Shown piece after piece: positions 9,672 through 13,706 of a DNA stretch of 49,283 nucleotides. Where the stretch lies: NCBI GenBank assembly GCA_005116955.1, contig SWDI01000001.1, forward strand, positions 103,081 through 152,363. Reading direction: 5' to 3'. The position numbers and the translations under genes are program-made. The stretch's first letter is position 1, and each line of letters opens with the position of its first letter. This stretch comes from Nitrospira sp. (GTDB lineage Bacteria; Nitrospirota; Nitrospiria; Nitrospirales; Nitrospiraceae). The notes under the pieces were generated by a model, which worked only from the letters and a program-made list of their open reading frames with translations, did not search any database and had not been told where the DNA came from.

Positions 9672-9755
9672 CTATTCACGGTCAAGGTACACGGCTTTAT
9701 ACATCACTCCAAGAACAGCAGTCAGGGCGAGCAACGCAAAGAATATCGTCATCAT
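9672..9755 (-). CDS. Small single-pass membrane peptide (27 aa), copy 1
   Basis: A 27-residue reading frame: MMTIFF at the start, a hydrophobic run of about 17 residues (positions 3-18), then a charged tail KAVYLDRE, typical of a single membrane span with its C terminus in the cytoplasm. A very strong ribosome binding site (AAGGAGGTG) lies 8 bases before the first ATG. An extended -10 (TATACT, 9786-9791 on the minus strand) and a palindromic block (9811-9843) lie upstream. Copy 2 at 10204-10284 has the same size, shares the residues GV-x-Y after the core, and has the same promoter layout. Function is unknown. It follows the same orientation as the two-component operon upstream. Confidence 0.7.
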   Translation of the reverse strand: MMTIFFALLALTAVLGVMYKAVYLDRE

Positions 9756-9785
9756 AGATCTTTCACCTCCTTTCACCTGATGAAA

Positions 9786-9843
9786 AGTATAGCTCTCGAC
9801 TATGAAGGGTCTGTGATGAAATCATGAAGAAGTCTTCATGATT
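9786..9843 (-). promoter_or_regulatory. Putative regulated promoter and palindromic operator, copy 1
   Basis: The block at 9811-9843 holds a perfect inverted repeat: 11-base arms AATCATGAAGA (9820-9830) and TCTTCATGATT (9833-9843) around AG. On the minus strand a TATACT -10 element lies at 9786-9791 but no good -35 is present, as expected for an activator-dependent promoter. The block is 27/33 identical to 10342-10374 and sits at the same distance (19 bp between block and -10) as there. The adjacent OmpR-type regulator is the obvious candidate to bind it; that link is inference. Confidence 0.65.
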
Positions 9844-10111
9844 CGGCGACCGAACCACGTGCCAGCTGATCGGCGAGTGACACCAGCAAGTGATGGATAT
9901 CGTGGAACTCTTCGATGACGAACTGCCCAAATAATGAGGCTGTGTCTAGAAAGCCGTAGTTCTCAGGTAGAGACTGAAATGTAGGATGATGGGGGCAGTT
10001 ACCAGACTGCATGACCAGTCTGATCGGGATCTGCGAACTAACAATGGTCCAGAGCGACACCGAACCAGAAACCTGTGATGTTGCGGGTCTGACTAACCGA
10101 GATCGCAGCAC
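9836..10111 (-). CDS. Doubtful hypothetical protein (91 aa)
   Basis: An open frame of 91 codons starting at GTG (10111), placed between the two small peptide genes and in the same orientation. The C-terminal half (FHDIHHLLVSLADQLARG) looks like an amphipathic helix and has plausible codon use, but there is no clear ribosome binding site, and the stop codon falls inside the operator palindrome of peptide copy 1. It may be a decayed or spurious frame. If it is not a gene, the 360 bp from 9844 to 10203 hold nothing I can identify. Confidence 0.25.
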   Translation of the reverse strand: MLRSRLVRPATSQVSGSVSLWTIVSSQIPIRLVMQSGNCPHHPTFQSLPENYGFLDTASLFGQFVIEEFHDIHHLLVSLADQLARGSVAES

Positions 10112-10203
10112 GAGTCACAAGTGCGTATGTGACTGGCAAGCATGACCCTCTCTGCTCAGCCCCCGTCTCCAGCAGGTCGCTCCACAGCATCGTCCGAGTC
10201 GGG

Positions 10204-10284
10204 TCACCTGCTCGCAAGCTGCAACATCGCGTATAACACTCCGAATATGGCGGCCAATAAGAACACTTCGATAAAGGAAATCAT
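10204..10284 (-). CDS. Small single-pass membrane peptide (26 aa), copy 2
   Basis: A 26-residue reading frame that begins MISFIEVFLLAAIFGVLY and ends QLASR: one predicted membrane span with a short polar tail. A GGGGGTG ribosome binding site lies about 9 bases before the ATG (10284). The upstream -10 (TATATA, 10317-10322) and operator block (10342-10374) repeat the layout of copy 1. The two peptides align over their whole length with identical F, L, A, GV, Y and L positions, suggesting paralogues. Function is unknown; small peptides of this kind often modulate a membrane enzyme, transporter or sensor kinase. Confidence 0.7.
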   Translation of the reverse strand: MISFIEVFLLAAIFGVLYAMLQLASR

Positions 10285-10316
10285 GATTGTTGTTCACCCC
10301 CTTCTGCTTTTCTACC

Positions 10317-10374
10317 TATATACGCCACCAAGATGAACCCTCCATGATGAGACCGTGAAGAATTCTTCATGATG
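10317..10374 (-). promoter_or_regulatory. Putative regulated promoter and palindromic operator, copy 2
   Basis: The block at 10342-10374 contains the 14-base palindrome TGAAGAATTCTTCA (10356-10369). A TATATA -10 lies at 10317-10322 on the minus strand. The palindrome centre is 40.5 bp from the upstream edge of the -10, the same value as in copy 1, and a further shared TCATCA word follows at the promoter-proximal side in both. Matching sequence and spacing argue strongly for a functional regulator site. Confidence 0.65.
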
Positions 10375-10512: not shown

Positions 10513-11919
10513 TTACTGGGCGAGGGCCGGGAGACGCAGGGTAAAGACAGAGCCTTTGTTGACCTCGCTTGTAACGGAAATGCTCCCGCCGTGAGCATCC
10601 ATGATTTCTTTCACGATGGGCAGTCCAAGCCCGGTGCCAGCGGAATCTTTCGCACGAGCCCAATCGGTGCGGTAGAATCGCTCGAACAGATGGGGAATAT
10701 TCTCGGGTTCGATTCCGTGGCCTGTGTCCTCAACCGCCACTGCCACATCGTGACCAACGGCTTGCAGGCGGATGGTCACGGCTCCACCGGATGGAGTGTA
10801 CCGCAGCGCATTGTCGAGTAAATTTATCAATGCTTGTTTGAGCCACTGAGCATCGCCGAGTACGACGGAAACCGGTTGGGATTCAAATCGCAATGTGATC
10901 TGACAGTCATCCGCCAAGAGCATCAGCTCATCCACGAGCTCTTGAATCAGAGGTTCCACGGCGAGCGGGACGAGATTGACTGGAGGTTTACTACTGGTGA
11001 ATTTCGCGAGCGTCAAGAGTGGACGGGTCAAGGCGATGAGCCGATCCACTTGCTGGAGATTGTTGAGTAACACTTCATGATATTCTTCTGGGGTCCTCGC
11101 TTTCATAAGCGCCACTTCCAGGTTTCCCTGCAGGATGGTCAGAGGGGTCTTCATCTCATGGGCGGCGATCTCGCAGAAGTTCCGTTGGACCTCGCTACTG
11201 CGTTGGAACTGATCCAAGACGGAGTTGACCGCCTGGGTGAGTCGCCGAAATTCTCGATAGGGTGAATCCATCGCCAGACGCTTCCCCAGATCGGTTTCCG
11301 ACATCGTTTCGGCGCCCGTGCACAACGCGTCGATTGGGGCCAACACCTTCTTTGCCAACCAGAGGCTGCCGACCCAGGCGACAAGCAGCGTCGCTCCGGA
11401 CCCGAGGGCGAGCAGAAACACAAGGCCATTCAGAGTTTCCCGGTAATGAAGCAGCGAGGTTTGTGCCTGCAGAACATACCGCAGTTGGCCGTCTTGTACG
11501 GTAGACAGAAACACGTGTCGAGCCGGGATACTAGCCGAGTCAACCGTTTCGAACACCGTGTGGTCACGCTCGACTCGTTGAAGCACGTCAGCTGGAATTG
11601 AAGGTGGCGTTGCTGTGTCGGAACTTGTCCAGATGAGCCGGCCGTCAGGAGAAAACACTTGAAGAGAATGCGGCACTTCCGGAAGCTCATAGGAACGCCG
11701 CACGTCGGCGGCAAGTGCGCCGCCCTGAGCCCTTCGCGTGAGCATTTCGGGGTGCCGCTCCACGATCTTGGCAAGCGTCTCCGCCAACGCGAAGAGTTGT
11801 CCATCCACAAAACGATGCAGCAGAACCTCGCTCACCGCGTACACGAGCGCGGAAAACAAGATGAGCCCTGCCATCAAGACGAAGGCGGACCAACTGATCA
11901 AACTGCGTAGAGATTTCAT
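10513..11919 (-). CDS. Membrane sensor histidine kinase
   Basis: The 468-residue protein is an inner-membrane sensor kinase partner of the OmpR-type regulator upstream (4-bp ATGA overlap, so translationally coupled). It has two membrane spans (about 9-31 and 163-188) enclosing a periplasmic sensor of about 130 residues, a HAMP domain (to about 240), an H-box with phospho-acceptor His254 (AAHEMKTPL), an N-box (NLLDNALRYTP), G1 (EDTGHGI) and G2 (GTGLGLPIV). The architecture resembles heavy-metal and envelope-stress sensors, but the ligand cannot be told from sequence. The two small membrane peptides lie directly downstream. Confidence 0.93.
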   Translation of the reverse strand: MKSLRSLISWSAFVLMAGLILFSALVYAVSEVLLHRFVDGQLFALAETLAKIVERHPEMLTRRAQGGALAADVRRSYELPEVPHSLQVFSPDGRLIWTSSDTATPPSIPADVLQRVERDHTVFETVDSASIPARHVFLSTVQDGQLRYVLQAQTSLLHYRETLNGLVFLLALGSGATLLVAWVGSLWLAKKVLAPIDALCTGAETMSETDLGKRLAMDSPYREFRRLTQAVNSVLDQFQRSSEVQRNFCEIAAHEMKTPLTILQGNLEVALMKARTPEEYHEVLLNNLQQVDRLIALTRPLLTLAKFTSSKPPVNLVPLAVEPLIQELVDELMLLADDCQITLRFESQPVSVVLGDAQWLKQALINLLDNALRYTPSGGAVTIRLQAVGHDVAVAVEDTGHGIEPENIPHLFERFYRTDWARAKDSAGTGLGLPIVKEIMDAHGGSISVTSEVNKGSVFTLRLPALAQ

Positions 11920-12599
11920 GCCGATGAGTCTGGCTCCTCGAGCATGTACCCTGCACCGCGGACTGTTGCGATCAAAGGCGGAGAAAAATCCCGGTCGATC
12001 TTCGCGCGCAAGGCTCGAATATGGGCGTCGACGATGTTCGTCATGGGGTCATAGCTGATATCCCAGACATGTTCAATGATCGCGGTTCGCGTAAGCACAC
12101 GGTTCTTGTTTCGCAAGAGAAACTCGAGCAAGGCGTACTCTTTATTTGTCAGAGCGATTTCTTGTCCTGCCCGCCAGACACGATGAGAAGCCGGATCCAG
12201 CTTCAGATCTGCCGCTTGGAGATGAACCAGTGGTTGCTGACTTCCTCGGCGCAAGAGGGCCCGGATTTGAGCCAGCAGTTCCACAAAAGCGAACGGTTTC
12301 GGCAGAAATTGGTCTGCGCCGGTATCAAACCCCGACACCTTGTCCTCCACCGTGTTGCGCGCGGTCAGAAGCAACACCGGAGTCATGAATCCCTTGTCTC
12401 GAACACGGCGGCAGAGGGTGAGGCCATCAAGCTTGGGGAGCATAATGTCCAAGATCAACAGATCGTAAGCGTTGCCCAACGCCAATGCCAAGCCTTCTTC
12501 ACCGTCGGCGGCCACGTCCACCACATAGTGCTCCTCTTTTAATCCTTTTCTGATGAATTGAGCCAGATCGGCGTCGTCTTCAACGAGCAGAATTCTCAT
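11916..12599 (-). CDS. OmpR/PhoB-family response regulator
   Basis: The 227-residue protein has a receiver domain (phospho-acceptor Asp51 in LLILDIMLP, acidic pair ED-D near 8-10, KPF lysine near 103) and a C-terminal winged-helix DNA-binding domain (from about 130, with LLEFLLRNKNRVLTR and VDAHIRALRAKID). It is the cognate partner of the kinase that overlaps its stop codon. It probably binds the paired palindromic blocks at 9811-9843 and 10342-10374. The gene begins 52 bp after the secreted-protein gene and probably shares its transcript. Confidence 0.94.
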   Translation of the reverse strand: MRILLVEDDADLAQFIRKGLKEEHYVVDVAADGEEGLALALGNAYDLLILDIMLPKLDGLTLCRRVRDKGFMTPVLLLTARNTVEDKVSGFDTGADQFLPKPFAFVELLAQIRALLRRGSQQPLVHLQAADLKLDPASHRVWRAGQEIALTNKEYALLEFLLRNKNRVLTRTAIIEHVWDISYDPMTNIVDAHIRALRAKIDRDFSPPLIATVRGAGYMLEEPDSSA

Positions 12600-12651: not shown

Positions 12652-13269
12652 TCAACAGAGAACGCTTTTGCAGTCCGTGACCACCAGGTTGGTTGCTTTT
12701 TCGTCAACATCAAGGTCGATGGTCAGCCAGGCGATTCCGACCGCTCGTTCATCCTGGTGGGCTCCACCGCTTCCCTCAAGAAGGCTGACGACATAATAGC
12801 GGCCGGCAGGAACTTTCGTGAACCAAAAATGACCGGTTGGATTGGCTCTCGTCGTGCGAAGATAGGGAATCAGTTTCTTATCGGTCAGCAGTTGGGCCAT
12901 CACCTCACGAAGGCATTCCACAGGCGACCCATAAGGTACAGGGCTTTCTGGGGATGATGCTCCGTTCTTTGATGGGCACGAGTTCTCTCGCACATGTTTG
13001 TCGAACCAATAGCGAGTAGAGGAAGCCATTGGAATCAGGTAGATCGAGGCCCCTGCCTGAGTCACGGCTTTTCCAGAGGATGCACGCAAGAATACCTGTC
13101 CGGCGGCACTTCCCCGGCCTTTTGCCCTGTAGGCGAAAAGCTCTTTCTCGTTGAAGGTCGGTGGGTTCGATGAGCCCGACACCACTGCCTGTGCTGGTGC
13201 CACGTGGACGCTGCAGATCAGCAATAGACAGATGAACCAACATGTGAGTCGTCTGTCACGCCAGGTCAT
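12652..13269 (-). CDS. Secreted protein with carboxypeptidase-regulatory-like fold
   Basis: The 205-residue product starts with a Sec signal peptide (basic MTWRDRRLTC, hydrophobic core, cleavage after APAQA near residue 28). The C-terminal part contains TGHFWFTKVPAGRYYVVSL, the usual signature of a CarboxypepD_reg/CNA-B-type beta-sandwich. Three cysteines in the middle (one pair about 20 residues apart) could form a disulfide. Its ATG overlaps the stop of the FTR-like gene by 4 bp and the response regulator follows, so it may be an exported component of the same stress response. No enzymatic motif is seen. Confidence 0.8.
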   Translation of the reverse strand: MTWRDRRLTCWFICLLLICSVHVAPAQAVVSGSSNPPTFNEKELFAYRAKGRGSAAGQVFLRASSGKAVTQAGASIYLIPMASSTRYWFDKHVRENSCPSKNGASSPESPVPYGSPVECLREVMAQLLTDKKLIPYLRTTRANPTGHFWFTKVPAGRYYVVSLLEGSGGAHQDERAVGIAWLTIDLDVDEKATNLVVTDCKSVLC

Positions 13270-13706
13270 GTCGAGAGAGCTGAGGCTGTGGCGGATTCGT
13301 CTGGTTCGGTTGGAGTCTGGACGGCTTTGTGCTTGAGGGCGCGACCCTTGTCAGGGGTCGGATCAATGACCAGACCATACACTTCTCGGCCTTCATGGCC
13401 TTCCGGTAGATATTCTGTAATGGGCATCCCGTCTTCGCGAACGAACAGGAGGCAGTGACAGTACTTATAGATTTGCATCTCATCGCACGCGCAGATCCAC
13501 CGTCTGAGCTTGGCTTCAGCTTCTTTGTCCTTATAAAAGTTACAGGGGCAGAGCGGTTTCCCGAGTTCGTCGATATGAGACGCTAATCCCTTCACCACCG
13601 CCTCCGTCACGGCAGGGTTGGGATGCATCATGGTTCCGCTTTTCTCGGCAAACCCTTGTATGAACTTTCGTATCTTCTCGAGACTTTCCTGTGTCGGCTC
13701 AGCCAT
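13266..13706 (-). CDS. Ferredoxin:thioredoxin reductase catalytic-chain-like protein
   Basis: The 146-residue protein carries the three Cys pairs of the FTR catalytic chain: C53-P-C55, C72-A-C74 and C83-H-C85. Their spacing equals that of the cyanobacterial enzyme (55/57, 74/76, 85/87). In the known family four Cys hold a 4Fe-4S cluster and two (here probably C55 and C85) form the redox disulfide that reduces thioredoxin-like partners with electrons from ferredoxin. The second pair is CAC rather than CPC. The C-terminal 30 residues are polar and low-complexity. No variable chain is encoded next to it. It heads a minus-strand operon with a secreted protein and a two-component system. Confidence 0.85.
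   Translation of the reverse strand: MAEPTQESLEKIRKFIQGFAEKSGTMMHPNPAVTEAVVKGLASHIDELGKPLCPCNFYKDKEAEAKLRRWICACDEMQIYKYCHCLLFVREDGMPITEYLPEGHEGREVYGLVIDPTPDKGRALKHKAVQTPTEPDESATASALST

Follow-up and report, generated by a model that had tools for sequence, protein, structure and literature searches.

Promoters served by PhoB/OmpR-family activators carry repeats at a fixed distance to the -10 element, and these repeats stand in for a -35 element. Supernumerary helices have reportedly been seen in bacterial pMMO and AMO, and no paper on them was found in the open-licence literature. In archaeal AMO, the extra small membrane subunits AmoX, AmoY and AmoZ have been described (PMC10030591), and a link between PmoD/AmoD proteins and pMMO or AMO is on record (PMC6189053). 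The lone amoC3 of Nitrosomonas has been described as under sigma-32, and lone amoC genes are linked to stress there (PMC6311188). Small membrane proteins that inhibit a kinase and are controlled by its response regulator are established in the case of MgrB and PhoQ (PMC8404706, PMC10576120). In the open-licence papers searched, no account of how comammox Nitrospira regulate ammonia oxidation through a specific regulator was found.

Here, we analyzed a 49,283-nucleotide stretch of a Nitrospira genome (the window), in which a sensor-regulator pair lies beside two very short membrane peptide frames, P1 and P2. By its gene content, the source genome is that of a comammox Nitrospira. We estimate a probability of about 0.5 that the pair heads a two-component regulon for ammonia oxidation in which P1 and P2 are accessory membrane subunits of AMO or of the AmoD system.

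The sensor-regulator pair and its proposed operator

The response regulator (RR; 11916..12599, minus strand, 227 aa) is an OmpR/PhoB-type protein with Pfam Response_reg and Trans_reg_C domains and is our proposed activator. Its gene overlaps by 4 bp that of a membrane sensor histidine kinase (HK; 10513..11919, minus strand, 468 aa) with HisKA, HATPase_c and weak HAMP matches and a CusS-like catalytic core, and the pair sits directly upstream of the peptide frames. A receiver with Trans_reg_C next to a membrane kinase is the make-up of a PhoB/OmpR-type two-component system. The best NCBIfam model for RR was cztR_silR_copR, at 258 bits against a cut-off of 279.2, and the TIGR01386/TIGR01387 (CusRS/CopRS) cut-offs were not reached (247.1 vs. 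292.55 and 258 vs. 279.2 bits). When HK sensor residues 28-165 were inspected for His, Met and Cys metal ligands, only H84 was near-invariant. Because HK fell below the heavy-metal cut-offs and its sensor domain has this single near-invariant histidine, copper sensing via CusS-like ligands is not supported. An AlphaFold model of HK (pLDDT 73, pTM 0.39) matched catalytic cores only and gave no clue to a ligand. Upstream of RR, the minus strand of the window (12652-13706) encodes a secreted protein of 205 aa as well as a protein of the ferredoxin-thioredoxin reductase catalytic type.

Each peptide frame is preceded by a promoter of matched design. Operator/promoter 1 (9786..9841, minus strand) contains a perfect inverted repeat with 11-bp arms, as the original prediction held, and a -10 element TATACT at 9786-9791. 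Operator/promoter 2 (10317..10372, minus strand) consists of an inverted TGAA half-site, a TTCA-WTCA-TTCA series with an 11-bp period and a -10 element TATATA at 10317-10322. The two 33-bp blocks within these promoters lie where they had been placed (9811-9843 and 10342-10374), but a recount gives 26/33 identical positions rather than 27/33; both -10 elements do begin 20 bp from their block. A position matrix built from 64 related sites scored the two promoters at 65 and 73 (49.0 and 51.4 with its direct-repeat part), and the best of 872,813 positions of reversed sequence reached -19, so the view that this match is not due to chance held up.

The operator had also been called palindromic. That description fits the inverted half in copy 1; the part that is invariant across promoters is a set of TTCAT/WTCA/TTCAT direct repeats with an 11-bp period and a -10 element 11 bp downstream, while amoC promoters lack the inverted half or have a degenerate one. 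The matrix consensus reads TGAAGA..TCTTCATGATCTCCTCATGG...CTTCAT, followed by eleven bases to TAnnnT. Direct repeats at about this period adjoining a -10 element are a feature of PhoB/OmpR-type regulons, and the operator is, on its sequence pattern, better read as a TTCAT-type direct-repeat array of this kind with an optional upstream inverted half-site.

A search of the source genome (3.65 Mb) for the operator, as had been suggested, found five matches at ≤2 mismatches and 0 in the control. These include the P1 and P2 sites, which lie in the window immediately 3' of HK, and a site before a lone amoC. A match before a 106-aa frame (C2:101333) and one whose -10 element is not at the right place (C3:137111) were left out of the regulon. 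Across the genus, the operator pattern was found in 52 of 79 genomes and the direct-repeat array pattern in 66 of 79, with zero matches for the control of the former and the reversed control pattern of the latter.

The position of the arrays points to the neighboring regulator. Among 80 loci fetched by RR, 65 had an array beside the RR/HK genes; it lay just after the HK gene on the same strand in 52 loci and just upstream of RR in 13, and 94 of the 99 arrays in these loci were on the RR/HK strand. PepSY-RR-HK operons, whose RR is more distant (64-68% identical), likewise have an array in front. Inside the window, none above background was present upstream of the RR operon. These placements support the earlier proposal of a small regulon under the neighboring RR, and we consider it very probable that RR binds the TTCAT arrays and likely that its effect is activation rather than repression. 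It could instead be that another regulator binds the operator and that the two-component system is its neighbor by coincidence, a reading to which the purely positional case for RR binding lends some weight. We regard it as very unlikely, given the same-strand proximity in 65/80 loci, the arrays before the RR gene itself and before the PepSY-RR-HK operons, and the fit of 11-bp direct repeats by a -10 element to this RR family.

Two short coding frames behind the arrays

The two tiny minus-strand frames translate as originally claimed. P1 (9672..9755) encodes 27 aa, MMTIFFALLALTAVLGVMYKAVYLDRE, with a single hydrophobic span and a conserved G-x-x-Y-K motif, and P2 (10204..10284) encodes 26 aa, MISFIEVFLLAAIFGVLYAMLQLASR, also with a single hydrophobic span. 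The strong ribosome binding sites ascribed to them are visible in the sequence, at 9764..9771 for P1 (AGGAGGTG) and 10294..10303 for P2 (AAGGGGGTGA), both on the minus strand. That P1 and P2 are paralogues was only partly borne out: their profiles are similar (hhalign E 2e-5, probability 76%), but because the peptides are so short, common descent is plausible rather than proven.

Conservation of the frames in related Nitrospira had been suggested as a check, and they are kept. Homologous frames of near-constant length stand behind arrays across the genus, with a median of 32 bp (IQR 30-33) from the end of the -10 element to the start codon. A small membrane frame follows within ≤120 bp of 91 of 188 distinct arrays, compared to 0.57% of random positions. 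Among genus homologues, P2 had a pN/pS of 0.31 and the P1 core group one of 0.29, which indicates that the frames are under purifying selection and genuinely coding. Short hydrophobic frames in tandem might also be type I toxin-like peptides or non-coding leaders. However, purifying selection at the protein level, constant length and termini and an activator-type promoter speak against this, as does frame-preserving conservation in the case of a leader, making it highly improbable.

The peptides appear to be specific to their lineage. The P2 profile reached E 1.9e-17 in the source genome and gave strong matches in about 43 genus genomes, with best per-genome values of 1e-17 for P2 and 3e-16 for P1. 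The profile search of other genera gave no credible match, Pfam and NCBIfam assigned no family to P1 or P2, and searching PDB sequences with the single peptides and with profiles gave no match to any solved AMO/pMMO chain. A weak PDB match to ORM2 (E 0.14) was dismissed. Another type of membrane peptide, 27-33 aa long (MDTNWLIFGGTILGLVIAAVVVYKKGQQ), occurs behind arrays in L186/L181, L188 and L227 (genomes G065, G064, G063 and G001), and in L062 and L067 a different small membrane frame stands behind the array upstream of RR.

Ammonia-oxidation genes, fusion and other genes behind arrays

The source genome encodes its sole amoA at G000:C1:838658-839365, away from the lone amoC. It also has AmoB-like and AmoC-like frames, three AmoD/E-like paralogues and CopC-/CopD-like frames, the last groups being named by sequence reading and context. 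The lone, non-operonal amoC (G000:C5:491241-492044) passes AmoC_BACT and is preceded by the array TCTTCATGAATTCCTCATCAGCTCTTCATAGCTCGAGGAGTATGCT, whose matched stretch starts 169 bp before the start codon. This array scored 15.8 with the full matrix and 18.7 with the direct-repeat matrix, compared to a control maximum of 11.0 over 2.4 million positions. In relatives (L116-L122), an array lies 200-310 bp before the lone amoC, and in L237, L238, L239 and L240 an array is followed by an AmoE-like gene and then amoC; the AmoE-like protein matches PmoD (PDB 6cpd, E 9e-9). No array above control level was found at the amoCAB cluster of the source genome, where the assembly has gaps. That region (G000:C1:832000-850000; L232) also holds a chimeric amoC/peptidase-like frame, which probably stems from a collapse of the several amoC copies.

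The peptides and the spare amoC share a promoter design, and both are probably controlled by the RR/HK pair, so that this pair becomes a candidate for the regulation of ammonia oxidation. The original prediction had named the probable regulator, but the comammox setting, the arrays at amoC and nxrA and the tracking of amo genes by the peptides lay outside its scope.

Array targets differ among lineages. An array precedes nxrA near the RR/HK genes in L070 (8204-11224) and L090 (3305), and the L070 gene product matches NXR subunit A (PDB 7b04, E 4e-295), which suggests that in this lineage the same regulator may also reach nitrite oxidation. In the more distant Nitrospirales L083, L085 and L092 (9429/9335/4828), the array instead precedes a sugar-nucleotide transferase gene near RR/HK (PF00483 in L083), so that targets shift with lineage. 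Behind arrays at L040:8322-8558, L246, L245 and L152 is a protein of 75-87 aa, MANIITASMVCFPYVMVGLGQAII...CKVCFIPGC, whose C-terminal part carries a CxxC motif; it directly follows HK in several loci and has no Pfam or NCBIfam match. Genomes with large regulons have up to 13 array sites (G063/G064), and the genes behind arrays in such genomes include those for a multi-PAS histidine kinase and for Slp-family outer-membrane lipoproteins (L216, L221, L184, L214 and L211).

The occurrence of the peptides follows that of amo genes. P1 or P2 was present in 57 of 63 amo-positive genus genomes vs. 1 of 16 amo-negative ones (Fisher p 1.5e-10, a value that ignores kinship) in a set with many fragmented MAGs and several incomplete genomes; the lone amo-negative genome with a peptide, G025, is a 440-contig assembly. 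This is the distribution expected of an AMO accessory subunit within the genus, but amo-positive genomes of genus g17 are without P1 and P2. Canonical nitrite oxidizers that keep the regulator are without the peptides. In genus g14, arrays were found in 25 of 29 genomes, credible P1/P2 in none, and amoA was not found. Therefore, the regulator and operator appear to predate the peptides or to be spread more widely, whereas the peptides go with amo.

A second line of evidence comes from fusions. In L238 and L240, the frame opening at the P1 start position continues into the AmoE-like protein (MTTIFLAILAVSIASGTIYA... and MMTIFIAIVTLSISTAFLYRR...), and in G074, G076 and G005 frames of this kind, 222 aa long and just upstream of amoC, are picked out independently by the P1 profile. 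In some genomes, then, a P1-type peptide is, from these reading frames, naturally fused to a PmoD/AmoD-type copper protein, and the cases may stem from one event. A K/R-rich stretch follows the P1-like helix in the fusion, and from this we predict that P1 and P2 probably have an N-out, C-in topology.

The main rival to an AMO-accessory role is feedback on the kinase, one of the roles first suggested, in which P1 and P2, like MgrB, would be controlled by RR, bind HK in its transmembrane region and turn its activity down or up, leaving only shared regulation as the link to amoC. In most loci the peptide genes do come immediately after HK, and MgrB and PhoQ provide the precedent. Small single-span frames occur behind RR-associated arrays, with control by RR predicted from that association. 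Still, peptide distribution tracks amo genes rather than the kinase, genera that keep RR/HK and arrays are without the peptides, the fusion partner is a PmoD-type protein and not a kinase, and several genomes have two to four P2-type copies. We therefore consider kinase feedback rather unlikely.

P1 and P2 might also be general envelope or membrane-stress peptides with no physical tie to AMO or the kinase, within an envelope-stress regulon to which Slp-type lipoproteins and a stress-type amoC would also belong. This would agree with the arrays before Slp-family lipoproteins, a PAS histidine kinase and other small membrane proteins, and with the stress link of lone amoC in Nitrosomonas (PMC6311188). 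A more specific partner is suggested, however, by the confinement of the peptides to genomes with amo genes and by the PmoD fusion, and we judge this explanation unlikely.

Proposed role and comparison with known systems

For an AMO-linked role of P1 and P2, we put the odds at about even. The peptide genes adjoin the kinase and lie outside the amoCAB cluster, which counts against such a role, and we do not file P1 and P2 as AMO subunit members because their profiles gave no sequence match to the solved small chains of AMO/pMMO. Under the accessory reading, HK would sense an envelope signal, and phosphorylated RR would bind the tandem TTCAT repeats overlapping the -35 region and activate promoters having only a -10 element. 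The regulon here would comprise P1, P2 and the lone amoC, produced together. As small inner-membrane peptides, P1 and P2 would serve ammonia monooxygenase or the AmoD-type copper system, acting as single-helix accessory subunits or as assembly or stability factors, and would be made when the two-component system turns on a replacement or stress form of the enzyme. Such an accessory-helix role is reasonable given the stress-linked lone amoC, the extra small subunits of archaeal AMO and the tie of PmoD/AmoD to pMMO/AMO.

A bolder version, which we hold only tentatively and think is somewhat improbable, is that P1 and P2 are unrecognized micro-subunits of the comammox AMO/AmoD assembly. A dedicated two-component system would then swap in the lone amoC together with the helices and, in a related lineage, drive nxrA, placing ammonia and nitrite oxidation under one sensor. 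Should P1 and P2 prove to be AMO subunits, the three-subunit AmoABC description would be too simple for the bacterial enzyme. Regulation of comammox amo is now directly testable through a conserved operator, a named RR/HK pair and the candidate targets lone amoC, amoE-like/amoC operons, nxrA and the micropeptides.

The promoters resemble the tandem-repeat promoters of the PhoB/OmpR family (the pho box and those of CusR/CopR, PmrA and PhoB relatives) in having a winged-helix RR, 11-bp direct repeats in the -35 region and a fixed -10 element. They differ from pho box-type promoters in their TTCAT repeat, the extra inverted TGAA half-site and their targets, comammox peptides and amoC. As in MgrB-PhoQ, P1 and P2 are small single-span membrane proteins with an adjoining two-component system as predicted controller; by contrast, they have 26-27 aa, are not known to be related to MgrB in sequence and have a distribution that follows amo rather than the kinase. 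Like the extra AMO/pMMO subunits, they are small, membrane-spanning, lineage-restricted and putatively co-regulated with amo. They are, however, much shorter, are encoded beside a two-component system and gave no sequence match to solved chains. The PmoD/AmoD/AmoE copper proteins provide the fusion partner of P1 and a neighbor in the amoC operon under the same array, whereas P1 and P2 themselves have no copper domain. Finally, the lone amoC of the source genome is, like Nitrosomonas amoC3, non-operonal and apparently under its own control, but here that control would run through a two-component array common to small membrane peptides.
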